DNA of 20,219 nucleotides from Syncephalis plumigaleata (Eukaryota; Zoopagomycota; Zoopagomycetes; Zoopagales; Piptocephalidaceae), in the NCBI GenBank assembly GCA_025201365.1, contig JAIXMF010000255.1, positions 1 through 20,219 of the forward strand. Reading direction: 5' to 3'. Each line of letters begins with the position of its first letter. Position 1 is the stretch's first letter. A program made the position numbers and the translations under genes. This document shows positions 1-18,106 of the stretch, piece by piece. The notes under the pieces are model-generated. The model saw nothing but the letters and a program-made list of their open reading frames with translations, did no database searches and was not told the origin of the DNA.

Positions 1-664
1 ACGTCATCAGCATAGATATATATATATGTCGCTTTTAACGAGCGATAAAGTAAAATAAAGAAAAATGTTGCATCGCGTGGCGCCTCCGTGTAAGCAAGCC
101 TCTTCTCCATGTATCCAATTTGGCATGCCCCTTTTCTTGTCAAGTTAATACCGCATATCTAGTCAATCGGTCGTACATGTGTGGCGTATACATTTCTGCC
201 TGATGTGCGTTACGTAGGAAACTGAAACGAGAACGAAGGCAAAAAACAGCAGCAACAGCCTGTCCATGGCCAAACTGGGGTTGACTCCAATTTGCTGTTT
301 GTCGCGTAGTGTTACAATAAACATAACAGGAATTGGACAGTTTGTTTCCCACATGGCATGAATGTCGTTGAATCACGTTGATTGATCTGCCATATTGCGC
401 CAAATGACAAAAATAGAATTAACCTAGACGTCGACAAGTAGATGCGCACTTTTTGACGTATGGCCAGACATGAGGGAAATGCTTGCAAGCTGCGCGTATG
501 GTAATTTATAATAGCATTAATTGTCTATAGGGAAGTACATTGATTGCAATTTATTCGCTACATCTAATGGAGCACCATTTGCTTAAAAGTTTATTCCAAT
601 GGCGTGTACAATTACATTAGAGATATAACTATGTTATGTTTATAGTATTGTCCTATTTATTCAG
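1..664. other. Left-edge stretch without a supported gene
   Basis: I see no gene here that I can defend. The right part (about 400-664) is AT-rich and lies downstream of the minus-strand PAF-acetylhydrolase paralogue, so it probably holds its 3' UTR. On the minus strand at 354-163 there is a 63-codon ATG frame with one strongly hydrophobic segment (MDRLLLLFFAFVLVSVSY). A second minus-strand frame over 403-140 overlaps it. Neither matches a family I recognise and neither has clear flanking splice sites. They could be an exon of a gene leaving the window on the left, or chance. Confidence 0.4.
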
Positions 665-959
665 CTATTTCTTCAGTAGCTTCTTTTCATCATCGCCAAC
701 AGTACCATCCAATCGATGCACTAATAGCCGCTCCGGTATTATTGACGTATTACTAGTTATTATATTATCCGCTATTGGTATGCGTAATGAATCCAATTTT
801 TGCGGACATGCTGGCAGCGTATGGCGTAGGAATTCCAAACATACCTGAGTGTTAAGTCCAAGTGTTTGCGCAGGATCGCCTATCTTTGCGAATGGAATAT
901 ACGTTACAATACTTCCGAGCAAAAGTGCAAAATCACTTTGATGCGGATGTTCCGAATTG

Positions 960-2220
960 CGAACTGTGAACAGCCATGATGGTCCATAGATCCTTGCTCT
1001 AATGTGCGATGACTATGAGCATTGGCATCCTCTTGTTGCTGTTGTTTCGTCGCCGCACTGCTCTCGCGTTGTTTGCCATTCCAGTAGATCATATGATCTC
1101 GTAGTATGTTGTAGTTCTGGCTCCATTTCGTGAATGCTTGCGAGTTGATGGCCATGATTGGTGGTGGTGTTGGCTTTGCACGTTGATCATCCTTGTCGTT
1201 TGTCGTTGTACCATTGTTGTTCACTTCCTTCGATACGGCAAACATCCATGGATCAAATGCAACGCCACACTTGTATGGCGTACCCGGTTCACGTAGTGCC
1301 TCAATGGTGGTTGCCCCGCCAAAACTATGGCCTGCCATTGCTGCTCGGTTTAGATCAAGTCGGTTCTTAAGCTGTTTCTGATCAAATCCATTCGACATGG
1401 CAACATTAGTGTCGTCATTGTTCAATGTGGCAGCGCTCTCTTCTAGGCAATTGTCGACAGCATCACCAGAGTCGAGTCGTTCCAGTAGTTCCCATGCCGA
1501 GTGCACCTCACCAAGTCGATGATGAATCTGGCCTCGTCGCATTCGATACTCGTCTTCATCCCGCTTCGGTCGTCGATACGGTATGGTGCGTTTGCCTTTA
1601 TCGAGCGATGTCACCGAGGCAGTGCCGTCACGATGTTCGATCGCACACACAACAAACCCGTGCGAGGCAAGTTCGCCACAAATACCGCTGTACGTTGTCC
1701 TACATCCACCTAATCCATGCGAGAACACAACAACAGGGAATCGATATGGATGATCTTTTGCTGGTGGTGGTGATTCTTTATCTTCATCTTCAGGCAATCT
1801 AGTAGCTACTGGTGCATCCATACATGCTGGTAGTTTGGTGAATCGCACAATGCTTGCAATAAATGGAATTGATATCAACCGAGGAATTCCAAGGAATTCA
1901 CTATAACCTATTTATCTCAATTGTTAGTAAGCACATATTATATGCATAGAATGTTACTTGCCTTGTCCATACACATAGGATGGCGGTGGTAGCCATGTTG
2001 CTTGATGCTCATGACCGGTAGGTTCAGCCGGATAGTATAATCGTACAAGCAACGGCTCCTTTTCACCGGCAAGCTCCTTATCCGCATCTTCAGGGTGGGT
2101 GGCCGTTTCCGTGCTAGTCATCGATGCACCTCGGTGTTGTCGACCACTGCCGCCAAACCATTCGATATCATGACAGCTAACCCTGTAGGGCCCGGTATAT
2201 TTTGGTAGTTTTGCGAATAA
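960..2220 (-). repeat. Left arm of ~1.26-kb inverted repeat (PAF-acetylhydrolase copies)
   Basis: This 1261-nt segment matches 11939-13200 (1262 nt) in reverse complement, the one-base length difference being the frameshift. The identical part includes the whole 54-nt intron. Coding differences I noted are few (Asp/Ala, Ser/Ala and Gly/Ser substitutions plus some silent changes), except in a 55-nt island at 1840-1894. Identity stops abruptly at both ends. Confidence 0.9.
1908..1961 (-). other. GC-AG intron in the frameshifted PAF-acetylhydrolase
   Basis: The donor reads CAAG|GCAAGT and the acceptor AAATAG, with a TACTAAC branch sequence. Using the nearby GT of GCAAGT as donor would put a stop directly after the join. 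Using GC gives the family sequence Y-G-Q-G-Y-S-E-F. It is identical over 54 of 54 bases to the intron at 12198-12251. Confidence 0.85.
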
Positions 2221-2247
2221 GCTCAAATATTCCATCATCCTAGGCAT

Positions 2248-2891
2248 TGGAGAAAAACAGGATAGATAGAAAGAGAGTGACAACTAAATGTTTTCTTTTT
2301 AAGAATAAACCCCTCTTTTGATTTCAATGTAAACCAAATAAATACTAGAAGCAGAAACGAGTAACGTAAGCTACTAGCAGACAAAAAATAATGTATACAA
2401 TTATGATGAAATAATATAAGAATTCCCCCAGTATTTATAATGTTAATAACCGTACCAGTCCCCTATTGTGTCATAACCGGATTGTTAACCATCCGATGGT
2501 AGTACAATGTATCAACGATAAGACCAATATGCAATATACGTATGCCAATTACTACCTCTTAATCCACATTAGGATCAATATTGCAAATATAGAGCATTAT
2601 CACCTGCTTACTGATAGGATGACCATCAGGATTCCTTTGTAGGCATGATGAATCGTATGTGATGAACGTGACTCCATTTGCAATTCGCTGCCACTATTGC
2701 GAACTTAGATGTCTATGCTAGTTACGATTTATGCCTGCACATTCCTTCCATAATGGCAAGATTAGTCAATGCAGTCTGCCATTATCGCCAGTCTATTGTT
2801 AAATGCCGAGTAGTAGCTTATTGACTATTCAATTGCAATAATAAACAAAAAGGGGGATGATTTATTACTTAAAAAAGAGACACTAGACAGA
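2248..2891. other. Intergenic region, no gene seen
   Basis: This AT-rich stretch lies between the 5' end of the frameshifted PAF-acetylhydrolase and the stop codon of the Atg38/NRBF2-like gene, both on the minus strand. It should hold the former's promoter and the latter's 3' UTR. All frames are frequently interrupted. I found no N-terminal extension like that of the other PAF-acetylhydrolase copy and no inverted-repeat ends. Confidence 0.5.
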
Positions 2892-5369
2892 TCAAACTGA
2901 TGTAGAGGATGCTGCTCTAGCGTATGACATTGATCCAGTGTGTGACTCTGATGTAGTTGCATTGTCCGTTGTTTCCACCGCTGTATCCAATTTACTTGGT
3001 GTCACCTGATTCCGTTTGGATGATTCTTTCAAGCGTTGCCAATTTTGTTTAAATTTGATAATGGTAGCCATCTATAGATTGACGATGACGATGACGATGA
3101 CGATGTGAGCAATAATTAGAACAATCTCCATTGACAATACTTGCCTGTTTTTCCTTTTCCGCAGATATACGACGTACTTCTTCCTCCAATTCATGGATAC
3201 GTGCTTGCAATTGCGGCACTAGTTATGTCAGAGCAATGTTAGACCATTGTATAATAAATGCTTATTGCCTGCTTATGTGGATATTACCAGATGGTTCTCC
3301 TGCTGTCGTGGAACATTGCATTAGCGTAGACTTGACGAGTTCCTGACTCTGCAATAGTTTTTGTGCCTGTATCGTGTTAATATAAGCAATTCGCTAATTT
3401 AATTACTCTTGTAATCATCTATTACCCGTTTCCTTATATCATCTCGAAACTGGTCCAGATTATTACGTAACGTGGCATGTTCCTCTGCCGACTAGTTCCA
3501 TCATAGTGTGTAAATAATCATACAATTAACGTACATATATCGGTTAAACCTAGTTACCTTCTCTAGTGTTGCAACACGATCCGATAGCATATCTACCATT
3601 TGTTTCAGTTGTTTATTTTCCATTTCGTATTCTTCAATTGATTTTGTTGCTTTAATCCTCCTATATACATATACAAAGCATTATTAGTTAGCTAAGCAAC
3701 AACCTCAACAATAATCATTTAAATTGTTACTACGTACATTGCCGAGAATTGTGGTGTCATATCCGACATAGCATCACTGATTAATGCACTATTATGTCCG
3801 GTAGAGCTTGTATTGATTACTGTATGATTGGTCGATGATCCAGCAGTATAGTCACAATCATTACTGTTGTTCGATGGTCGGTCAACGAGATAGAAAGAAT
3901 CTGACATGGTCCTTTGTACAGATGCGTCTGCAATTTCCGTGGCAATCTCCTCCGATGGTGAATCCAAATGGCTCGGTGTACGTGCCAACTCTTCCATCGC
4001 TGCTGCATTACTTATGACACCATCTTCAATGCGTGACTGTTGCGTCATTGGATCAGATTCATTGTTTGTCGGTATCGAGCCATACATCATTGAGGCTTGA
4101 TGGTGCAACGACTCTTGTGCCGATGCCAAATCTTGTCGTAGATTCTCCGTGTATTCCGAATTGTATAGTGGAACTGTAGACAATGCAACCGGATTCGAGA
4201 TACGATCCATTAGTGACTCGACTGCCTCCCAGAACTTCTCGAATGGATCTGTCTTCATATTCTATCATGGTTGATTATTTAGTGGAGAACGAAGCGCGAG
4301 TAACTGCTATTCCACACTTACTCGACCTGGAATAATCATGTACGAGGAACTAGCACCTAATAGGCAATGCAATTAATGAGATATCACGTTTTGTTTCTAT
4401 GATAAGTTAACTATACCATCCCATGAGGATGTTGTACGCTCTGTCGTCGACTCGGCAATACTGGACATTCCTAATAGCGCATGCTTATGGTTATTAGTAT
4501 TACTGCATTGTCAATGACATGCTCATCATACCGCTATGATCGTAATTTCGATTGGACGGTGATTCTAGCATAGTAACACTGTTACTTGAACCGAGATTCG
4601 GCAATGGTGCGGATGGATTGACGGCAGGCAACGAGGCCGTAGACTGAGATAGACCAGATTTGGCACTCGTAGTACGATTAAGTGGTCGTGGTGGAATTGC
4701 ATGCACCGAACTCATGGTGCAGCGTAATTTGGCCTGATTCAACGAGGCATACGAGTTGGCCAGTGTTCCCGTCGTCGATGGAGGACCCGATGAGAATCTA
4801 GCTCCTCTATTGCTACGTGACGATGACGATGATGATGATGACGGCGGTGTCACTACTGTACCCGTTGATGTTGCCTGCATATTAGCCGACAACTGCTGTA
4901 CTCCCTGTCGTTCCTCTCGCTTTAAACGACGTTGTATATCGTTGACGGCACGCTCATAAGTCTTTTGCATCATGGAAAGTGTATCTACAACCTGTGAAAT
5001 ACAAAAGGAAATACCGATCAATATCTAGATGTTCCTTGCTGGCAAATTGCTTGCTTACCTGTGGATCCTCGATATGCTCCATGGTTTCAGGTACGCGCTC
5101 TTGTTCCATCATAGTTGGTTTGCATAGAAAGCCCATACTTATAATTACCTACCCAATAATTCCGTGTATAGCGCGAGTGCTCTTGTCATTTGCCCGCGTT
5201 GCAAGTGAGTCTCCGCGGCTTGAGCCAACTCATGAACCTAGCGAGTGTAATATATATATATATATATATCAACATAGTTGAATACGTATGTTTGAAGACA
5301 GTCACTTAGGCTCTATCTATCTATCTTTCCTTTTCATTTACTTACCTTGGCTACTGGACTGTCTTCCAT
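2892..5369 (-). CDS. Atg38/NRBF2-like MIT-domain coiled-coil protein
   Basis: Predicted 574 aa in 12 exons: 5369-5346, 5237-5153, 5099-5059, 4991-4532, 4470-4417, 4356-4322, 4261-3738, 3660-3558, 3491-3426, 3366-3288, 3218-3145, 3071-2892; all phases join. Residues 1 to about 80 form a MIT-like helical bundle (VHELAQAAETHLQRGQMTRA, later DTLSMMQKTYERAVNDIQRR). A Ser/Pro-rich region with a poly-Ser tract follows. A conserved-looking block DPFEKFWEAVESLMDRISNP starts near 236. Residues ~410-515 are coiled coil, and the C-terminus is basic (FKQNWQRLKESSKR). MIT plus C-terminal coiled coil is the plan of Atg38/NRBF2, the dimeric subunit that stabilises autophagy-specific Vps34 PI3-kinase complex I. 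I infer that role from architecture. The last intron (3144-3072) is GC-AG and carries a GATGAC-type hexamer array. Confidence 0.65.
3072..3144 (-). other. GC-AG intron with hexanucleotide array
   Basis: The donor is AACAG|GCAAGT and the acceptor CTATAG. The alternative GT donor four bases on would break the frame. Inside, 3081-3104 is about four copies of a GATGAC-type hexamer. Confidence 0.75.
5238..5345 (-). repeat. Longest intron, expanded by a TA microsatellite
   Basis: Intron 1 of the Atg38/NRBF2-like gene is 108 nt against a usual 52-75 nt. It holds a TA dinucleotide run around 5251-5269 and TCTA repeats near 5313-5325. Donor GTAAG and acceptor CTAG are normal. Confidence 0.7.
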
Positions 5370-5642
5370 GATGATTAGCAGCAATAAGACCGCAAGAAAT
5401 ATAGCCAACTATTATGAACAGATACAGCTAGCTAGCTAGCTAACTAACTCAATAGATAGATAAACCGGGTGCTATACAAATATATATAGATATAGATATA
5501 GATATAGATATAAGCAGAACCGGTAGATATCTATTGACAACTAGAGTCGTAACTGAGGAAAAGTTAAAAAAAGCCAGGCAAGTCCAATCAAACTGGAAAT
5601 GGTGTGCGTGTATCTGTGAGAAATCCTATTATAGTAACAATA
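5370..5642. promoter_or_regulatory. Upstream region of the Atg38/NRBF2-like gene
   Basis: It lies between the ATG at 5369 and the transposon at 5643. It contains simple repeats only: GCTA/ACTA tetramers at 5427-5449 and a GATATA-type hexamer array at about 5482-5510. The promoter is presumably here; I see no specific site. Confidence 0.35.
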
Positions 5643-6190
5643 CAGTGTTTTTCCATCCAATTTGCGCATTTATCCTTTAACATTTGCAGTTTATTAATCA
5701 ATAGATTCACACAATTGTTAACACCATTATTACCATAGAAATGTCACTTGACACAGCATGATAATAATAATTCAGTATTTGGTAATGAATCCTATAGTGA
5801 TAGCGATAACTATCATCATCAATTCTATAAGGTAGATGATACAAGTGTACTAGTATAGTTGGATATTGCCATGTTATGTACTTACAAGTAGCTATTGATT
5901 ATCGTGTATGGAATCGGGATATGGCTGCATGTCTGAATTTTATTCAGATTATTCGCAGTGTTCGTAATGGAAAGGGTATTCCAACACAATTCCAACGAAA
6001 TACCGTTCCTTCTAAACGTTCAAGCAATGATGAGCAAGACCAAGAGGGAACCAAACAACAAAAAACAATTTATCCGTGATAGTTATCGCTATCTACACCC
6101 CAAAATACAGGGTAATTGTAAGTGTTATTATAACTATCATTTATTCATAAAACAAATGGCTAACTGCGCAAATTGGATGGAAAAAGCCTG
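5643..6190. mobile_element. 548-bp Tc1/mariner-type (TA-target) non-autonomous element
   Basis: It is bounded by 26-bp terminal inverted repeats that begin CAG and share TTTCCATCCAATTTGCGCA, with two mismatches between the ends. TA dinucleotides flank both sides (5641-5642 and 6191-6192), matching the TA target-site duplication and CAG ends of Tc1/mariner/pogo elements. The subterminal ~95 bp on the left and ~78 bp on the right reappear, reversed, in the element at 9601-9838. It encodes no DDE transposase; the only coding trace is a Fanzor-like C-terminus at 5840-6079. It sits in the short gap between the Atg38/NRBF2-like gene and DENR. Confidence 0.85.
5840..6079 (+). pseudogene. Fanzor/TnpB-like nuclease C-terminal remnant
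   Basis: The frame is open from 5840 to the stop at 6077-6079, with an ATG at 5876, but there is no room for a full nuclease. The segment YRVWNRDMAACLNFIQIIRS (from 5900) fits the RuvC-III motif of TnpB/Fanzor proteins (aromatic/Asn-Arg-Asp, then Ala and Asn, then a helix). It is followed by a G-x-P-x-x-F-x-R tail I associate with fungal Fanzor1-type proteins. Cys/His residues just upstream (KC...YCH) could be a degraded zinc ribbon. Fanzors are known passengers of several eukaryotic DNA transposon types, Tc1/mariner included, which fits its place inside a TA/TIR element. The RuvC-I and II parts are missing, so it cannot be an active nuclease. The family call rests on motif memory alone. Confidence 0.55.
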
Positions 6191-6343
6191 TATGAAGGAA
6201 TGAATGATATCATAATAATCATTTGATCAATATGTTGATGTAAACTTGTCTATGATCATCAGAATGATAATGATGATGGTCATAGTGGTGGCAATTTCTC
6301 TCATTTATATTCTTACTTGTTCGTTGCTCATTTATCCGTGATC

Positions 6344-7405
6344 ATGGCCGATACAGAGATCCAACCTACTCTACAACGTCAGGAAGTTGTTTATTGTGAA
6401 GGTATTTACGGATTGTTATTGTTTATAGTAGACATACTCGTTGACTAACAATAATATCACTGACATAATAGTGTGTACACTTCCACCTGAGGTAATAATC
6501 TACGTATACAAACACATAATATGTTTATTGATATTCAGTTTTGCAATATATACGTCTATTCATAGTATTGCGAATTCGGATCAACTTTGACCAAGTGTCA
6601 GCAATGGCTTAAAGATCATCATGAAGACTTGTTTGAACGTATTTATGGTGATGCTCAAGGTAACTAACTAACTGACTAATAGCAGTAGTAGTAGTAGCAG
6701 TTATTAATCTGCTATTTCTATTTAGTTGACACATCTGCTTCGACCAGTGCTGAAAAGAAACCTGCATGGGGTAAATTAATTGCAATCTATTCATTCGCTT
6801 CATCCATTGTTAATCCATATTGATAGGTGGTATGGGTTTGAAGAAAGAGCGACCAGTAAGTGTTTTACTAGGATGAATAGAATAATCTAGACATTAGCTA
6901 AATCAGTATTGCATCAGGCCAATCGAGTTATTATTAAGAGGATAGAACGAAATCGTCGTAAACACGTTACGAGCATCTATGGCTTACACTTGTTTGGTAT
7001 GATTGTTAACGTAGTCAACTAGGATGATATAGTAGCGTGCAAACATGATATCTAACTGTCAAATTATTCTAGATGTGGATATGAAGAAAGCGGCCAAGAT
7101 GTTTGCTAATCGATTTGCTTGCGGCTCCTCTGTAACCAAGAATAATCAAGGCAAAGATGAAATTGTCGTGCAAGGTGATGTAACCGATGATGTTCGCGAC
7201 TTGATTCTCACTACATGGCCAGCGGTAAGTGATTGATGACACTTTCATATACAAGTGTATATCATTGAACAATCAAGTAATAACATGATTGTGTGTGTGT
7301 GTGTGTGTGTATTGTACATATACATAGGTGACAGAAGATGCCGTAGAGACTGTGATCGAGGAGAAGAAAAAAGCAAAGAATCCTCCATTGCCACCACCGC
7401 AATAA
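6344..7405 (+). CDS. DENR: Density-regulated protein (DENR/Tma22), 40S-binding translation factor
   Basis: Predicted 184 aa in eight exons: 6344-6401, 6472-6491, 6566-6659, 6726-6770, 6827-6855, 6918-6996, 7073-7224, 7328-7405. DENR pairs with MCT-1 (Tma20) on the 40S subunit. It promotes removal of deacylated tRNA and re-initiation after short ORFs. The N-terminus carries the zinc-binding cysteines C18, C21, C28 and C37 (YCEVCTLPPEYCEFGSTL). Residues ~84-155 are the SUI1 domain, with KRIERNRRKHVTSIYGL, KKAAKMFANRFACGSSVTK and GKDEIVVQGDV. Length is close to the usual 190-200 aa. Exon 2 is only 20 nt. Intron 7 (103 nt) contains a TG dinucleotide run. The first in-frame ATG lies in a plausible context after an AT-rich leader, 152 nt from the transposon end. 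Confidence 0.95.
7225..7327 (+). repeat. DENR intron 7 with TG microsatellite
   Basis: This 103-nt intron is the second longest in the window. A pure TG/GT run of about ten units occupies roughly 7289-7310. Splice ends are GTAAGT and CATAG. Confidence 0.75.
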
Positions 7406-7722
7406 GCGTATATGATAATTGCGTAATTACTATATAAAACAGTTGTTATGTTATGAAATAGAAGAAAGCAATTTGAAGTACATTTTCTATTCGAGTATAA
7501 CATGATAAAAGACAATGATATCAATCAGTAATACTAATGATTTATTTTAACGAACAAATATCTGTACTAATAAACTGATAGATGTCTATCATCACATATC
7601 ATCAGATAGACGATCATTGTTGAAATGATGACAACAATAGTAACAGCATTAGAGTAGCAGTAGCATACTTAAGCTTGTTTCTCCTCCTAGAAAGAGCATA
7701 TTAACAAACATGATCATTATTA
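7406..7722. terminator. Convergent 3' ends of DENR and the Vip1-like gene
   Basis: These 317 bp separate two stop codons that face each other, so both 3' UTRs and poly(A) signals must lie here. ATAAA-like runs occur on the plus strand (TATATAAAA near 7430). A near-perfect palindrome TGATAGAtgTCTATCA is at 7576-7591. No coding potential is seen. Confidence 0.4.
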
Positions 7723-9001
7723 TTATTGCTCATTGCAACTTACTGCAAGTTTACGTGATTCATTCACGGTATCAATGGCACGAGTGGCAGCTTGTGACAA
7801 CAACTTGGACGCTTGTTGACCAGGAGCAGTCTCCAGTGCACGGGTAGCAGCAGTTTGCATTTGATTGGCCGCGTAGTAAAGCTTATCGGTGATCTTGTAG
7901 GTGTCGTTCAAAGCGGTGGCGCGTGTCACAACTATATCACGTACTTTATACTTTTCATCGAGTTTAGTTACTGTATAGAGATGGATAGAGGAGAGAATGT
8001 CATCGTTAGTACTTGTACTAATGAGAATACGTGTTATACTTTACGTGATGACGTACATTCAGTAAGTGCTTGTTGGTAGGCCGATTGTGCCTTGTTGGTA
8101 ACACCGTATTTCTCTATTGAATACATAAGCAAATGTACTATGGTGATGACGATAATGATAACACAATTACTTACCATCGAATACCTTGGCACGATTGATG
8201 ATGGTAGCTGACAAAGCATAACCGGATGCCAACAATTCCGTAACAATCGAGGTCATTGGCTATAATACAATATAGAATGAGTCAATGTTTAACTACGAGT
8301 AGTAGTAGTAATTATCGCACCTTTTCCTCTTGAGAGATGTTGCCATCATTCGATTCGGTGTCACTGGCACCACGATGATGATCACCGGAATACTCGTCTT
8401 TGAAGTAGTATTCTACACTGATTTGTTCCTCGGCAATAATTGCATTGGTAAGCATGGTGGCAGTCTTGGAAGCCGAATCTAATATACGTATATATATATA
8501 TATATATATATAGTAAATAAACAGATAGTATCTTATTAGTTACAATCTAATAGAATGTGATCAATACACATACCCTTTTCAAACATAACAAGTGCTTCTT
8601 TTTTGCCATCCTTGGCACTAACAAACGAGTAAAATAAGGAATAACGTCAGTTATATGCACTATGCGTATAGACATATGAAGTCATATACATACTTGTTAA
8701 CTTCGATTTCGCTTATTTTACCGCAGAATAGGAAGAATTCACGGACTAAATATCACCGTCAATCAAGCATTAGTAAGTGTGCACTACTGGATACAGCATT
8801 TATCTTGTATGCTATTCACTTCTACTACTTACCCATTTCCTTGGTAGCATCAGGTCCGATATTCTTGACGTAGACCAACTTTGGAGTTGGCTCCGAGGGA
8901 ATCTACACGTTATTATACAGCAATATCATTAGTTATCTACTAAACAAACAGACAAACAAGTAAACAAGTAGACTACATACTGTCATTTCAAATCCGGACA
9001 T
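7723..9001 (-). CDS. vip1: Vip1-like RRM RNA-binding protein
   Basis: Predicted 244 aa in eight exons: 9001-8981, 8902-8833, 8745-8694, 8617-8574, 8478-8321, 8259-8175, 8113-8057, 7970-7723; every phase joins. Residues ~12-85 are one RRM: RNP2-like KLVYVKNI, then FFLFCGKISEIEV, RNP1-like KEALVMFEK, and a final strand QISVEY. An acidic linker follows. The C-terminal half is helical: SIVTELLASGYALSATIINR, FDEKYGV, LDEKYKVRD and the final TRAIDTVNESRKLA. This layout matches fission yeast Vip1 and relates to plant BPA1-like proteins. The molecular role is poorly defined; RNA binding follows from the RRM. A RRM gene of this kind supports a fungal source. The intron at 8573-8479 carries a TA run. 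Confidence 0.85.
8479..8573 (-). repeat. Vip1-like gene intron with TA microsatellite
   Basis: This 95-nt intron is the third longest in the window and holds an AT/TA dinucleotide run at about 8487-8512. Donor GTATGT and acceptor ATTAG are intact. Confidence 0.7.
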
Positions 9002-9600
9002 TTTGAACAATGAGTTGACAGTAGTCGTAGTAGTAGCGTTGAAGAGAGTAAAACACGTAGTAGAAACGTAAAGAAGTAAAAGAGAAAGAGTGAAAGAGTG
9101 AAAACTAAACGAGAGTAGTTGCTGACGGGTAAAGAAGTACGAGTAATCGATTTACTTGCTCATTAAATAGTGCATTCGGTTGGGGATAACACTACTCTGT
9201 CCACCCCACACCATCATTGCTTATCCATTATCCATCTATCCTTCATAGTCACATGTGAATATTAAACTGTAGTGATGATGTGTCAGTTACATATGCTGTA
9301 TCAGTGAATGGGCTACAACATCTATCTCTTCTCCATTTATTGGCACGTGTCAATCAATATCAGAGCACATTTGGCATTGTCTATACGAAGTAAATGAACG
9401 GATGTAGTCCACGTGAATACCATCGTGATGATGGTTCTCTATCCATTCTATATTACACAGCTGTATAGTCATTTCAATAGTGATTATAGAATAGGAAGTA
9501 GAAAGCCAAGAATTGTACAAAATAGTAGTGATGTGTTTATTTTTAGTGGTATGTAGACAATACAGGTAAATCAGTAACAATAAGCTAGTGACGTCATTTA
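9002..9600. promoter_or_regulatory. Upstream region of the Vip1-like gene
   Basis: About 600 bp between the Vip1-like ATG and the short transposon. The part near the gene is purine-rich on the plus strand (GTAGTAGTAG and AAAGAGTGAAAGAGTG runs near 9020-9110). A perfect CRE-type palindrome TGACGTCA lies at 9589-9596, three bases before the transposon's TA target. I see no coding region. Confidence 0.35.
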
Positions 9601-9838
9601 CAGGCTATTTCCATCCAATTTGCGCAGTTAGTCTTTTGTCTTTACGAATAAATAATAGTTATCATTAATTGCAATACATGATATCGCGATCATTAACATC
9701 TCCCTCAACTGCTAGGGCAATGACAACTACTCAATAATAATAGCAATGCGATGATGGTGTTAACAATTGTGTAAATCTATTTATTAATAAACTGCAAATG
9801 TTAAATGATAAATGCGCAAATTGGTTGGAAAAACCCTG
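9601..9838. mobile_element. 238-bp MITE of the same family, opposite orientation
   Basis: It has TA on both sides (9599-9600 and 9839-9840) and CAG-beginning terminal inverted repeats with the same core (CCATCCAATTTGCGCA on the left, one change on the right). Its right end, reversed, matches the left ~95 bp of the element at 5643-6190. Its left end, reversed, matches that element's right ~78 bp. Only about 60 bp of unrelated or unalignable sequence remains between. The Fanzor-like segment is absent, so it is an internally deleted relative. Confidence 0.85.
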
Positions 9839-9943
9839 TAATCATCATTCATGGCAGTGTATGTCATCTATTGTTTACTAGCTACGTGTCAATAAAGTGT
9901 AATCATTCTATTTGTACTATGATACTGTGTAGTGTATCTTCCT

Positions 9944-11707: not shown

Positions 11708-13588
11708 ATGGAAAATCACAATGATAATAGTAGTAATAATAGCGATAATCAATCGTCGCGTTTCTTCACATCTATTACTTCTGGCGTGAATACGTTGAGG
11801 AAACGTACTATGGTCACACTGAATGGCACGTTTTCATCGACATCAAATGAGGAGACATCAGTGAAGCAGGAGTCTAGCGAAGCAGAGGCATCGTCTACAT
11901 CACGTAGTTGGAGTAGTCGAATACTGCCGCAGTTTAGTTTATTCGCGAAACTACCAAAATATACCGGGCCCTACAGGGTTAGCTGTCATGATATCGAATG
12001 GTTTGGCGGCAGTGGTCGACAACACCGAGGTGCATCGATGACTAGCACGGAAACGGCCACCCACCCTGAAGATGCGGATAAGGAGCTTGCTGGTGAGAAG
12101 GAGCCGTTGCTTGTACGATTATACTATCCGGCTGAACCTACCGGTCATGAACATCAAGCGACATGGCTACCACCGCCATCCTATGTGTATGGACAAGGCA
12201 AGTAACATTCTATGCATATAATATGTGCTTACTAACAATTGAGATAAATAGGTTATAGTGAATTTGCTCGAATACCTCGACTACTGTCTATTCCGCTTGT
12301 TACGGCCATTGTACTGTTTACCAAACTACCAGCATGTATGGATGCACCAGTAGCTACTAGATTGCCTGAAGATGAAGCTAAAGAGTCACCACCACCAGCA
12401 AAAGATCATCCATATCGATTCCCTGTTGTTGTGTTCTCGCATGGATTAGGTGGATGTAGGACAACGTACAGCGGTATTTGTGGCGAACTTGCCTCTCACG
12501 GGTTTGTTGTGTGTGCGATCGAGCATCGTGACGGCACTGCCTCGGTGACATCGCTTGATAAAGGCAAACGCACCATACCGTATCGACGACCGAAGCGGGA
12601 TGAAGACGAGTATCGAATGCGACGAGGCCAGATTCATCATCGACTTGGTGAGGTGCACTCGGCATGGGAACTGCTGGAACGACTCGACGCTGGTGATGCT
12701 GTCGACAATTGCCTAGAAGAGAGCGCTGCCACATTGAACAATGACGACACTAATGTTGCCATGTCGAATGGATTTGATCAGAAACAGCTTAAGAACCGAC
12801 TTGATCTAAATCGAGCAGCAATGGCGGGGCATAGTTTTGGCGGAGCAACCACCATTGAGGCACTACGTGAACCGGGTACGCCATACAAGTGTGGCGTTGC
12901 ATTTGATCCATGGATGTTTGCCGTATCGAAGGAAGTGAACAACAATAGTACAACGACAAACGACAAGGATGATCAACGTGCAAAACCAACACCACCACCA
13001 ATTATGGCCATCAACTCGCAAGCATTCACGAAATGGAGCCAGAACTACAACATACTACGAGATCATATGATCTACTGGAATGGCAAACAACGCGAGAGCA
13101 GTGCGGCGACGAAACAACAGCAACAAGAGGATGCCAATGCTCATAGTCATCGCACATTAGAGCAAGGAATCTATGGACCATCATGGCTGTTCACAGTTCG
13201 TGACTCTGGACATCAGAATCAAAGTGATTTTCCAATTCTATTTCAACGTCTAATGCGACACGTACCAAACTTTGGCGGAAAATGTGATCCAGTAGAAGCA
13301 TTAGAGCTGAATAACCGCATGAGTTTGGAGTTTTTACGAAGAACATTGATGAATCAAGATTTACCGGTGGAACCATTACACATCCCAGTTGATGATAATA
13401 TATTCACCGAGGATCTATCGAAACATCATCGTCTTCAATTAGTACATCGATTAGATGGCATTGTCAGTCAAGATGAGCAAGATATGCTAAATGCTGAAGA
13501 CACGACCGCTACTGAAAAGAAACCATCTAAAAGTTCCAAGATAAGCCTGAAAGCTAAATCGCCTAAAATTGCCGCTGCATCACCTTAG
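11708..13588 (+). CDS. Platelet-activating-factor acetylhydrolase family esterase, intact copy
   Basis: Predicted 608 aa, exons 11708-12197 and 12252-13588. It should hydrolyse the sn-2 acetyl or short/oxidised acyl group of phospholipids. The triad is readable: Ser358 in GHSFGG, Asp382 in AFDPWMF, His484 in DSGHQNQSDF. An oxyanion-type SHGLGGCRTTY lies upstream. The family N-terminal block KLPKYTGPYRVSCHDIEWFG follows a ~77-residue Ser/Asn-rich extension. Asp-to-His spacing (~100 residues) exceeds the ~55 of human Lp-PLA2 because of Asn/Thr/Pro- and Gln-rich inserts. There is no signal peptide, so it is probably intracellular. The C-terminus is Lys/Ser-rich. The start is the first in-frame ATG. 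The single intron has a GC donor. Residues ~169-186 correspond to the membrane-contacting helix after the Y-G-Q-G motif and differ sharply from the left copy. Confidence 0.9.
11939..13200 (+). repeat. Right arm of ~1.26-kb inverted repeat
   Basis: Reverse-complement partner of 960-2220. Near-identity runs through exon 1, the intron and most of exon 2, broken only by the island 12265-12319. Past 13200 and before 11939 the genes share family similarity at best. Confidence 0.9.
12198..12251 (+). other. GC-AG intron in the intact PAF-acetylhydrolase
   Basis: Donor CAAG|GCAAGT, branch TACTAAC, acceptor AAATAG. A GT donor would create an immediate stop (AAG TTA TAG). The GC donor yields G-Q-G-Y-S-E-F, as the family requires. 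Confidence 0.85.
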
Positions 13589-13794: not shown

Positions 13795-14805
13795 TTATGT
13801 AAAAAGCTCAGATGTTGAATAATGCGTGGAGAAAGGCTGGTCCTCCTGCATTGCACTGGCATAGTCGATCGTATACGTAGATAGTTGTATTGTCGATGTG
13901 TCATCAAACACGGATTGTGGATTCTGCCATGATGAACGACTGGTGAGTTCGTGTGATAGTCGTTGCTTGAACACATCCCAGTCATCTCCATTATGAGCGT
14001 AAACATTATGCGATGTAGTTGATGTGCTAGCGATGCTTTCATTCACTACTGTCTCATTATTCTCCGTTATTTGCTGCGTATCAGTAGATACAGATGACAC
14101 TGTAATTGTCACATCACTATTTGGCTTATTATACTTGAATTTACGTCCTAGATTAGCGAATCGTACTGCTCCTCGTGCCACCGGACATTGCAACCAGTAG
14201 AGAAGCAGCAGTTTAAGCGGATGATAAGCCGCGAATCGATCTTGTATCCGTTTATTCCAATGCTCCGTCAGTTGAAGTATGGCGAATACCGCCCAATAGG
14301 CTAGCCATCGTCTTGTCTCGCTTGTCCACTTGTGAATAGCGACGGCATCGGCATCGGCATCGGCATCATTAGGATTGTTAGGATTGATCGGCACACGTAA
14401 TAAGCGCCATGTACTGCAGACCGGATAGACAATACCGGCTAGCGTTAGAAATAGACCGCGCGACTCGCGATACAACCAACGTAAGCCAACTGCTGTCCCG
14501 AATGATGTAGCGATAAAAATGTGCACAGGAGAGAAGCCAAGATAGACTAGAAGACGAGCAAGCGGATTCAACACGAATAAACGCTCCATACCTGCCATTC
14601 GTGTGATAATATGTCGTTGTAACCATTGAAGTAGCCAGTTACGCGGTGCAACTACTATACGTCGACCGGGCTGTTGCTGTTGCTGCTCGAACCAGGCATT
14701 CAGTCGTCGTGTCACTCGTAGCAAGTCGTTCTTCTGTTCAGTGTCGCTTTTCCCGTTGGAATTAGACGGTGTATTACACGACTTATTCTGTACTGCAGGT
14801 GTCAT
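13795..14805 (-). CDS. REEP/Yop1 (TB2/DP1/HVA22) family ER membrane-shaping protein
   Basis: 336 aa, no intron, ATG at 14805. The family bends tubular ER membrane by hairpin segments. Residues ~113-216 carry the domain: RGLFLTLAGIVYPVCSTWRL, then WLAYWAVFAILQLTEHW, then YHPLKLLLLYWLQCPVARGA, matching the family pattern of YP, W-x-x-YW, E and the PxxxK...WLxxPxxxGA end. A further hydrophobic stretch precedes it (~85-110, LVYLGFSPVHIFIATSFGTA), after an N-terminal tail with a Gln run. Unusual is a ~24-residue Asn/Pro and Asp-Ala insert at ~138-162 inside the domain, encoded by a GCATCG-type hexamer array (14344-14367). The C-terminal ~115 residues are Ser/Thr-rich and unlike short Yop1, closer in plan to long REEP1-4-type proteins. 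It is the only clearly intronless long gene here. Confidence 0.9.
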   Translation of the reverse strand: MTPAVQNKSCNTPSNSNGKSDTEQKNDLLRVTRRLNAWFEQQQQQPGRRIVVAPRNWLLQWLQRHIITRMAGMERLFVLNPLARLLVYLGFSPVHIFIATSFGTAVGLRWLYRESRGLFLTLAGIVYPVCSTWRLLRVPINPNNPNDADADADAVAIHKWTSETRRWLAYWAVFAILQLTEHWNKRIQDRFAAYHPLKLLLLYWLQCPVARGAVRFANLGRKFKYNKPNSDVTITVSSVSTDTQQITENNETVVNESIASTSTTSHNVYAHNGDDWDVFKQRLSHELTSRSSWQNPQSVFDDTSTIQLSTYTIDYASAMQEDQPFSTHYSTSELFT

Positions 14806-15158
14806 TGTCGTATTAGTGGGTATATAAATAGTTAGATAGGCAGATCGACTAGAACAAAAGCACGTAGCAAGTCATATAACAGATATGATATATAATATAT
14901 ATATAGAGTGGTCGCAGAATCAATACAATAAAATAACAGAGTAACTAGAGTAAGTAATGCGACGATGAGAAAGTAAGCGTACACTTTGTTAGGGTTTATT
15001 TCCCCCTTGTAAATCAATAGATGATTATTGCTATGATTGAAGGTGGACAGATTATACAGGGCTTCTTCTTTTCGGCATTTGAACAATTCAAATCAGACAT
15101 TAATGTTCATTTTATTCATTTTCATATCAATAATATCAATAATAATAATATCTCTCGT
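14806..15158. other. Intergenic region between ESF1 and REEP genes
   Basis: These 353 bp separate the ESF1 stop from the REEP start, both on the minus strand. It holds ESF1's 3' UTR and REEP's promoter. A TA-rich run at about 14886-14905 is the only notable sequence. Short frames here look like chance. Confidence 0.4.
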
Positions 15159-18106
15159 TTATACGATACGTGTACGTTTACGTATATCACCTTTAGGCTT
15201 ATTACTAGTATTCTTGCGTTTTATCTAATGGTAATATAATGTTACTATGACTGTATGTATGTATCTAGTTCAATAAATAGCTTACCGAATTGACTAGCAT
15301 TGCTAAACCTTTATCTGAATGACGAGTGGTATCACTCTTTGTATCCTGTGTTTTCTGCTAAGCAGCATTAGTATCTACGTTGATATTTACGTGATTTCCT
15401 GTGACTTACATCAAAATCTGATGTCTCCTTCTTGCTATTAGATAGGTTACGACGCTGTCTCTCGTCTAATAGCTGTTTCATCGCGTTAGTCTTTTTAAAT
15501 CTAATTAGTGTGAGTTAAGAATATTAATTCAATGGATATATGTATATATTGCTTATTCGATTGATCAATGCAAACTAAAGGATACTGTGGATTGGTCGGG
15601 TCAATTGCAAAGTGATGCGATTCGTGTAGTGCTGTGAATCGAGGATCGCTCACGTCCATCTTGAAACTATCCTGTAGCTCGTCACCATCATCGTCGCCGT
15701 CATCGTGCTTATTACGCTTATGTCGTTGCTTCTTTCCTTTATTCTTCTCGTGTTTGACAATCTTCTTCATGTCAAAGTGCTCGCGATCATCCTTCGAATC
15801 CATAAGCAATAGTTCCAGTTCTGCTCGTTCACGATCACGTTCAAGCTTCTCTTCAGCGGTAAGCGTTTGCTTCTTTTTAGATTTCTTATCCTTATTCTTG
15901 CCATTGGTCATTGGCTCCACTATATCAATCATAATTAGCATAATCAATTTACGTATATATTCATTCACGTTACCTGCAAAGCCTTCCTCCTCCATTGCTT
16001 CACGGAAATAAGGATCGTCCATATCCACTTCATCATCAGAGAATGGTGCTATTAATCATGGAATGAGTTATAATCGCCGATGAACAATCAACTATGCATG
16101 TATATATCATTTACCTTCTTCGGACAAAGTAGTCGATGTTGCCTTTTGCTTATTCTTCTCTTTGCGTGCTTGTCGTTTCTCACGTTGTTTACGCATGTAT
16201 TTCTCCAATGTAGTCTCTTCCTTCTGCTCCTAAAAGCATTGTTTAATTAATCTACAATGCCTTATTGCATACACGTAACCACTTACTTCGCGTGTCTTTT
16301 TCTTTTCAAGCAATTCAGATGCCGTCTCGCTTAAGCCTGGTGTAAATGTGATCTCCATATCACCTTCTGGCATCTTCTCCTTTTCCTCGTCATCGTTTGC
16401 CGCTTCATTCAATAGAGTCTTGTATCGTTGTCGCATAGTTTCTACGTCTTCATTGTCACTTTCACCAGATGATGAAGCTAGGTAAGCTTTAAAGTCCATA
16501 TCTTGCAAATCATTCTTGTTAAACTTTTGACGCAATGTCTTGACACGATCGGGATCGTCATCATCCCAAGTCAGGGTGATATTCGAGTGTTGCAATGCCT
16601 GAGTGGCAAATTCAAGTCGTTTATGATTCTCGGAAGTACTAGTGGCTACACCTCTATCATTATAATAGTAATAAATTAGTCATGATCATAATAATGGATA
16701 ATATGTCTCCCTATCCACGTACACTGGCTTTTCGTTAAACTCCATATCATCGGGAATGAATCGTAGATCAAAGAAATTCGACGTGGCTTCCACTTCTGCA
16801 CCATCACACTGATCATAGATTGCCTGTGCCGTGCTCACTTTATCGCATTCTACCACTGCAAAATAATAGCGCAAACGTTCCAGCTGGTATTTACGTAGTG
16901 CATCCTTATTGAATTCCTCTCCATCATCATTCTTGAATAGCGACTCTTCCGTTACCTCATCATCACTGTTATCACTATCGGAATCGTCATCTCTATTGAA
17001 GATCTCCTTTGGTGGACCTTCACGCGCTTCCTATATATTGATTTGTAGGTATAAATATATACTTGATCGATTATCAGTAGCTTAGTAGAACATTACCTGT
17101 TCAAGTCGCTCTTTACCAAACTCGGATGTGTATATTTTAACCGAATGGATTGCTGATCCATCTGGTTTGAATCCATTAAAGATGGTAAACAGATCGGATG
17201 CCTATTATGATAGATAGATATATCATTGTTACTAACTTGTTCATAATCTTTCTACTATCAACTATCATCTACTTACTTTAAGATGATCCCAATCAAGATT
17301 TACCACTCCAATACGCTTAGTGGCATCACCAAGTGGTACCTGAATTACATTAGCGTTACTAATTGCTCAACTGCATTGTTTCTTTGTTGCTTTCTCTCTC
17401 TCTCTCTCTCTCTATCTTACCTCATCATCATCTTCACCGTGCTCTCCTTCCCCATCCTCAGCTGCCAATTCATCATGATCACCATCCACTTCATCAGAAT
17501 CTGACTCTTCCGATGAGGATGAAACACCTTCACCACGCATTGGATCATAATTACGTGCTTTCGGCATAGTATTTTCATCTGATTCTGATTCCTCTGATTC
17601 CTCTTCGCTAGCTGATTCCTCACTTGTACTCGCTGCCACCTGAGCATCAAGTTCCTGATCACTATACTCCTCCTCTGATTCTTCACTATCTGACTCTGCA
17701 GAAGCACTATCATCTTCCTTCTCCTTCTCTTCTCCTTCATCCTTAATGCGATAATATCGTTTCAATTCATGTTGTCCAGCATTATCCTGCAATTTACGAC
17801 CGTATTGATCCACTTTGGCTATTATCCATATAAGAATGAGATATATCAGTAGACTTCACCAATAGCACATAGAATATACTTACGCTTCCCGCTGAACTCC
17901 TCGCTTGTCATCATATGCTTGAAACGATCGTCCAAGTCAATCTTGACCGCATCTTTCTTAGTCCGTTGAAAACGCGGGTCATAATGAATACGAGCAAAAC
18001 GAGTATCGTCGGTTACAGGACGACGTGCGCCATTAGCGGACGGTACAGGCTTGGGCTTAGAGGTGTCTCCTCCAGATGCCGACTTGCTCTTGTTGCGTTT
18101 ACCCAT
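15159..18106 (-). CDS. ESF1: Esf1, 18S rRNA processing factor
   Basis: Predicted 738 aa in 12 exons: 18106-17884, 17818-17421, 17339-17277, 17201-17097, 17030-16723, 16653-16287, 16229-16115, 16048-15974, 15919-15586, 15500-15410, 15357-15286, 15224-15159; all phases join. Esf1 is a nucleolar protein of the small-subunit processome needed for 18S rRNA maturation. The N-terminal signature is present (TRFARIHYDPRFQRTKKDA, then DQYGRKL and YYRIKDE). A long Asp/Glu/Ser tract precedes an RRM-like core (RIGVVNLDWDHLKASDLFTI, SVKIYTSEFGKERL, NFFDLRFIPDDMEF). DMDFKAYLASSSGESDNED, TLEKYMRKQREKRQARKEK and lysine-rich repeats follow. The NUC153 block near the end reads DPRFTALHESHHFAIDPTNP then FKKTNAMKQLLDERQRRN. 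Exon 9's donor is GTATCC, chosen because it restores N-P-Q-F-K-K-T. Length matches the family. Confidence 0.95.
17340..17420 (-). repeat. ESF1 intron 2 with GA/CT microsatellite
   Basis: The intron is 81 nt. A CT run (GA on the coding strand) spans about 17395-17413, directly beside the donor GTAAGA. Confidence 0.7.

Follow-up and report, generated by a model that had tools for sequence, protein, structure and literature searches.

Homogenised and old sequence side by side in two inverted PAF-acetylhydrolase paralogues of Syncephalis plumigaleata: a probable case of interlocus gene conversion

Introduction

Where duplicated genes undergo conversion, peaks of divergence indicate sites under selection, as set out in PMC3924837. 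For the primate red and green opsin genes, that article cites Teshima and Innan for a divergence peak at exon 5 amid conversion. The locus of Syncephalis plumigaleata that we describe here resembles the opsins in several ways: the duplicates are neighbors (~24 kb apart in the opsins), they are mostly homogenised, introns included, and a short coding stretch has stayed diverged. However, the opsin comparison drew on known functional sites and two species, whereas here alignment alone links the diverged stretch to function (PMC3924837). A second parallel is provided by GOT1p1 and GOT1p2 of Tigriopus californicus, likewise paralogues of a metabolic enzyme that have high-divergence regions despite conversion. 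Several populations enter that account (PMC3728101), whereas ours is based on one isolate and two haplotype-like contigs. The inverted arrangement has a counterpart in the Saccharomyces flip/flop repeat, whose inverted paralogues are held near-identical through recombination. In that system, as described in PMC9731477, the repeats measure 4 kb and a 24-kb interval inverts repeatedly; at our locus, in contrast, a single orientation is seen and the arms measure 1.26 kb.

Literature searches on platelet-activating factor acetylhydrolase combined with gene conversion returned nothing on the subject, judged by titles and abstract openings. The process itself is known; what is new is this well-supported instance of it, together with a possible link between the diverged patch and membrane binding.

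Two inverted PAF-acetylhydrolase paralogues

The analyzed stretch of DNA (hereafter, the window) is an entire contig of 20,219 bp, C174, from an assembly of 32.6 Mb in 383 contigs. Genes of the Chitin_synth_1 family in this assembly indicate a fungus; IFT46, a flagellar marker, matched nothing, which is uninformative because no control gave a signal. It carries two genes, A and B, arranged head to head in inverted orientation, each with a single intron (Table 1). Judged from their sequences, A and B are PAF-acetylhydrolase paralogues and predicted enzymes. A search of the whole assembly with the PAF-AH_p_II profile (PF03403) gave scores of 161.3–198.2 bits at 4/4 loci against a cut-off of 20. 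These four matches, the only candidates and all of them scored, correspond to two loci per haplotype, and therefore no third gene that could have served as a donor is seen.

Table 1. Coordinates of the two genes and of their homogenised and unconverted parts in the window
Feature	Position	Strand	Remark
Gene A, PAF-acetylhydrolase (PAF-AH_p_II) paralogue, two exons	665..2247	-	ATG at 2247, stop codon 667-665
Gene B, PAF-acetylhydrolase paralogue, two exons	11708..13588	+	608 aa
Intron of A	1908..1961	-	54 bp, GC-AG (GCAAGT...TAG), TACTAAC branch-like site
Intron of B	12198..12251	+	54 bp, identical to that of A
Homogenised tract, copy in A	960..2220	-	edges from base-level alignment
Homogenised tract, copy in B	11939..13200	+	edges from base-level alignment
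Unconverted patch in A, 18 codons	1840..1894	-	22/55 differ; aligns with human Lp-PLA2 111-123
Unconverted patch in B	12265..12319	+	22/55 differ
Unconverted C-terminal coding part of A	665..959	-	contains the predicted catalytic His
Unconverted C-terminal coding part of B	13201..13588	+	homologous to that of A, old divergence

The intron begins with a GC donor, which we accepted because joining the exons at the GC border keeps the reading frame open. An alternative intron with a GT donor four bases further on was rejected, since on reading the sequence joining there creates a stop codon. In the window copy of A, the length differs by one base close to where the tract has its 3′ end; this shifts the frame of exon 2, which then ends at position 904. 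The allele of A on a second contig, C373, has an open frame of 509 aa. As the difference falls within a stretch that is otherwise free of substitutions between the contigs (see below), it could be a consensus error. We used the C373 copy of A for the alignment of A with B; except for one gap, its bases equal those of the window copy there.

Human plasma PAF acetylhydrolase (Lp-PLA2, PDB 3d59), with which we compared A and B, is a member of the same family. Alignment with it points to Ser290, Asp314 and His416 as the catalytic residues of A, and we take the Ser, Asp and His residues of A and B to form the catalytic triad. The Ser and Asp motifs fall together in a strongly aligned stretch; the His motif lies apart from them in a weakly aligned one (2.3 bits for A, 18.4–18.6 bits for B). 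The human chain differs from A and B in that it is without several of their inserts, its match to their C-terminal parts is weak and the N-terminus of B is longer. Beyond gene B, minus-strand frames at 13795-14871 and 15501-16055 match TB2/DP1/HVA22 and a NUC153 domain, both ordinary housekeeping families.

A homogenised tract bounded by old divergence

Comparison of the window with itself revealed an inverted pair, 929-2227 against 13231-11933, at 96.1% identity. The original prediction had placed near-identical inverted tracts at 960-2220 and 11939-13200, ~9.7 kb apart, and base-level alignment arrives at the same edges and spacing. Within the tract, A and window B differ at 41 of 1262 columns. 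More than half of these differences (22) are crowded into one short patch, leaving 19 in the remaining 1207 columns. The predicted identity of the introns at 54/54 bases is confirmed for A and window B; against the C373 allele of B, the intron of A scores 53/54, owing to one change in that allele.

Outside the tract, 44–55% of columns differ. Upstream, the figure is 103/190 columns for window B and 105/190 for C373 B; downstream, up to the stop codon of A, it is 129/288 and 128/288. The 3′ end of the tract lies three codons before the predicted catalytic His codon. The original prediction read both flanks as diverged sequence in the same family frame. This is so on the C-terminal side, where the two genes are clearly homologous, but not upstream, where 9 codons of A and 77 of B precede the tract and no clear homology is seen. 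Evidence of old paralogy thus comes from the patch and the C-terminal side, and not from the upstream edge by itself.

Could the clustering of differences be fortuitous? When the 180 sites that differ were shuffled over the 1569 columns, none of 20,000 arrangements for each B allele reached the observed best segment (813 and 802, compared to shuffle maxima of 185 and 195), and chance is therefore excluded. Synonymous sites display the same contrast. Against the two B alleles, synonymous divergence of A is 0.104 and 0.067 in the 5′ part of the tract and 0.062 with both in the 3′ part, so that the whole tract lies within 0.062–0.104. In the C-terminal part it is infinite (saturated) and 3.96, and in the patch it reaches 1.459. 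For comparison, the two B alleles differ from each other by 0.067 and 0.052 in the 5′ and 3′ parts of the tract, 0 in the patch and 0.025 in the C-terminal part. Since synonymous sites and the intron share the low divergence of the tract, constraint at the protein level is not its cause.

These values also bear on the possibility that one gene arose by recent segmental duplication of the other and that its ends then changed quickly. Identity of the tract, taken by itself, would suit such an origin. However, a recent copy could not have accumulated the near-saturated synonymous change of the patch or the saturated change of the C-terminal part, the C-terminal parts are still alignable homologues, and fast change would be needed in separate stretches. 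We therefore concur with the original prediction that a simple recent duplication does not fit, and regard it as extremely improbable.

The same mosaic on a second contig

A contig of 969 kb, C373, holds the same locus. It is collinear with the window in three blocks of 98.0–98.6% identity; genes A and B have the same orientation on both contigs and show the same mosaic. The tract copies, 9.7 kb apart in the window, are separated by 13.2 kb on C373, which has an extra 3.7-kb stretch that is part of a mobile element (see the last section). How the two contigs are related was judged from a gene family. The RNA polymerase largest-subunit family has matches at three places only in the assembly (C1, C318 and C340); most of the assembly thus seems to be collapsed, and C174 most likely represents a second haplotype that was left over, allelic to part of C373. 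Alternatively, the pair may represent a recent segmental duplication. A chitin synthase (Chitin_synth_1), found with equal score on C2:580134 and C139:12511 of G000, is perhaps a further left-over haplotype.

The two contigs differ by substitutions at 1.31% of positions outside 241-3278, with the element at 5640-6200 left out. Yet there is not a single substitution in the 3.2 kb of 44-3278, even though the 3,038 bp of 241-3278 should hold ~40. This is by far the longest substitution-free run; the next one, which spans the left-out element, measures 1.06 kb, and the maximum in 5,000 uniform placements was 1,224. The region may have lost heterozygosity or be homozygous, or it may be the shared collapsed end of an assembly bubble. 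Because gene A lies inside it, its two copies are not independent, and A counts as one independent sequence. The B alleles, in contrast, are independent, with 21 differences in the 1207 columns outside the patch.

The second contig is also informative about a possible assembly artefact, in which gene A would have been assembled with reads from gene B, or two alleles fused. The small size of the window, its apparent allelism with part of a 969-kb contig and the frame-shifting base of window A in an otherwise substitution-free stretch would be in line with such an error. However, the long contig shows the same mosaic and the same joins with a B sequence of its own. Moreover, a chimera would match one B allele, whereas the tract of A departs from the two at 19 and 20 of 1207 columns, and nine sites outside the patch, spread over both parts of the tract, are peculiar to A. 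A chimeric misassembly is accordingly unlikely, and we give an artefact of either kind very little credence.

Gene conversion between old paralogues

The original prediction suggested ectopic gene conversion that overwrote old paralogues, or a selective copying event. Conversion agrees with the synonymous jump from the tract to the patch and C-terminal part, with the survival of the patch and with the recurrence of the mosaic on the second contig. A tract of low divergence, bounded by much higher divergence and extending through an intron, is what conversion between loci would leave behind. We therefore consider it very probable that the two old inverted PAF-acetylhydrolase paralogues underwent interlocus gene conversion, in one direction or the other. 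Two points weigh against this reading: one conversion alone does not explain the surviving inner patch, and A rests on one independent sequence, its two copies being perhaps a single collapsed one.

In the simplest scenario, a break in one gene would have been mended by ectopic homologous recombination without crossover, most simply by synthesis-dependent repair. About 1.26 kb of one gene would have been copied into the other, starting within exon 1 and running through its 3′ part and the intron into exon 2, to stop a few codons short of the predicted catalytic His. The inner 55-bp stretch, the outer coding ends and the surroundings would have retained their old sequence. Comparison of the window with C373 shows no inversion between the arms, and such collinearity is expected from a non-crossover event. 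To account for the inner patch, the scenario needs an addition, which might be mismatch repair that acted in patches, a second event or restoration at a later time.

The distances outside the patch suggest when copying took place. Over 1207 columns, A differs from window B at 19 and from C373 B at 20, and the B alleles differ from each other at 21. At ~1.6% from either B allele, the tract of A is a copy of neither; the distances form a star in which it behaves like a third B allele. Copying would thus be relatively recent, dating roughly to the divergence of the two B alleles from their common ancestor, or else the donor was a third B haplotype. The three-way star points to neither direction of copying. 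Similar distances in both parts of the tract fit a single event with an escaped patch and several events of like age equally well. We also considered whether A had recently exchanged sequence in patches with one of the B haplotypes, and rejected this: the 10 sites specific to window B and the 11 specific to C373 B are intermingled, so that neither allele is the closer donor.

Base composition does not single out a donor among tract, patch and flanks. Third-position GC is 0.41–0.43 in the tract, 0.29–0.32 in the C-terminal parts and 0.28 in the patch, compared to 0.40 in the N-terminal part of B and 0.67 in the 9 codons of A before the tract. Searches of genome-contig and viral-contig collections found no relatives that could be used as an outgroup or in an alignment. 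Four matches in plasmid records were set aside as distant bacterial proteins (32–35% identity over 32–37% of the query), too remote to inform direction or structure.

If conversion is the correct explanation, the locus offers a clear-cut example of inverted paralogues evolving in concert, and trees of such genes would be misleading in a way that depends on the tract.

A diverged patch and membrane binding

The 55-bp patch within the tract was absent from the original prediction. At 40% different, with 22 of 55 positions changed compared to 19 or 20 of 1207 around it, the patch is as old as the C-terminal flank, and it is invariant between the two B alleles. In phmmer searches with A, it falls on residues 111–123 of human Lp-PLA2, and MAFFT alignments with A and B under two settings place it likewise; with B, the local phmmer alignment to Lp-PLA2 begins only after the patch. 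The C-terminal parts align with the human protein from residue 348 on, at the low scores given above. Lp-PLA2 numbering corresponds to chain position + 46, which we checked against Trp97, Trp105 and Trp115 as given in PMC8764669. Structure prediction of exon 2 of B without an alignment gave no usable model (mean pLDDT 35.5, pTM 0.23); the mapping of the patch is hence based on sequence alignment.

Three regions of Lp-PLA2 are of relevance here. According to PMC8764669, peptides 114–120 and 360–368 associate with the membrane and 192–204 with HDL. By the alignments, the patch contains the first of these, the unconverted C-terminal part the second and the converted tract the third. This suggests a tentative extension of the conversion reading, in which the patch and the C-terminal part might be islands held by selection for different membrane-binding faces while the core is homogenised. 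The alignment of the patch of A and of the C-terminal parts with the human protein, the membrane association reported for 114–120 and 360–368 (PMC8764669) and the precedent of divergence peaks at selected sites (PMC3924837) are all in its favor. The pattern described by Teshima and Innan, a diverged stretch within a converted tract, is present as well.

On the other hand, this is a single patch interpreted post hoc, and a patch of 18 codons placed at random in the tract would include the seven-residue segment in ~3% of cases. The alignments are uneven, given where the phmmer alignment of B begins and the 2.3 bits of the C-terminal match of A. The C-terminal part is long and includes much besides 360–368. 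A dN/dS of ~0.24 in the patch (0.349/1.459) gives no sign of positive selection, and the HDL-associated region, third of those reported, is inside the converted tract. As far as the aligned sequences allow, conversion might keep a shared catalytic core while selection shields two membrane-binding segments, resulting in one core with two lipid-surface adaptors, an idea that we regard as rather doubtful. If true, the membrane-binding segments would be the specialised part of PAF-acetylhydrolases, and modular specialisation would become visible as islands in a conversion tract.

Mobile elements near the locus

The mobile element between the tract copies of C373 spans 285975-290202 (L006 about 3976-8203). 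It is 4.2 kb long, has inverted ends and contains a 712-aa Fanzor1-like frame. The best PDB match of this frame is Fanzor 1 of Parasitella parasitica, a mould of the Mucorales (E 8.9e-114); its sole Pfam match, OrfB_IS605, is under the cut-off. Since the element is mobile, the relationship to the Parasitella protein says little about the group of the host. The same insertion is present in the window at 5640-6192 with its inside deleted, and 5840-6079 retains a frame like the C-terminal frame of the element. We take the ends of the element, TACAG..., to be of mariner type. Fanzor1 proteins in mariner elements with TA duplications are known from the general Fanzor element paper (PMC3627910), which was also the only relevant item, by titles and abstract openings, in a literature search for Fanzor with miniature elements.

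A short element of ~240 bp at 9599-9840 of the window has ends that match those of the Fanzor element. All 40 scored candidates (the best 40 of 980 from a first look) proved to be copies at 89–100% identity, its own copy included. The element thus belongs to a high-copy miniature family, probably related to the Fanzor element. When C373 293609-293667 is compared by eye with window 9600-9838, ~59 bp at the place of the short element are unalignable and there is no clean empty site. Further along C373, a direct repeat of 301 bp at 304259-304559 and 309721-310021 (100% identity; total span 5.8 kb) begins 241 bp past the end of homology with the window and is perhaps a young LTR retrotransposon.
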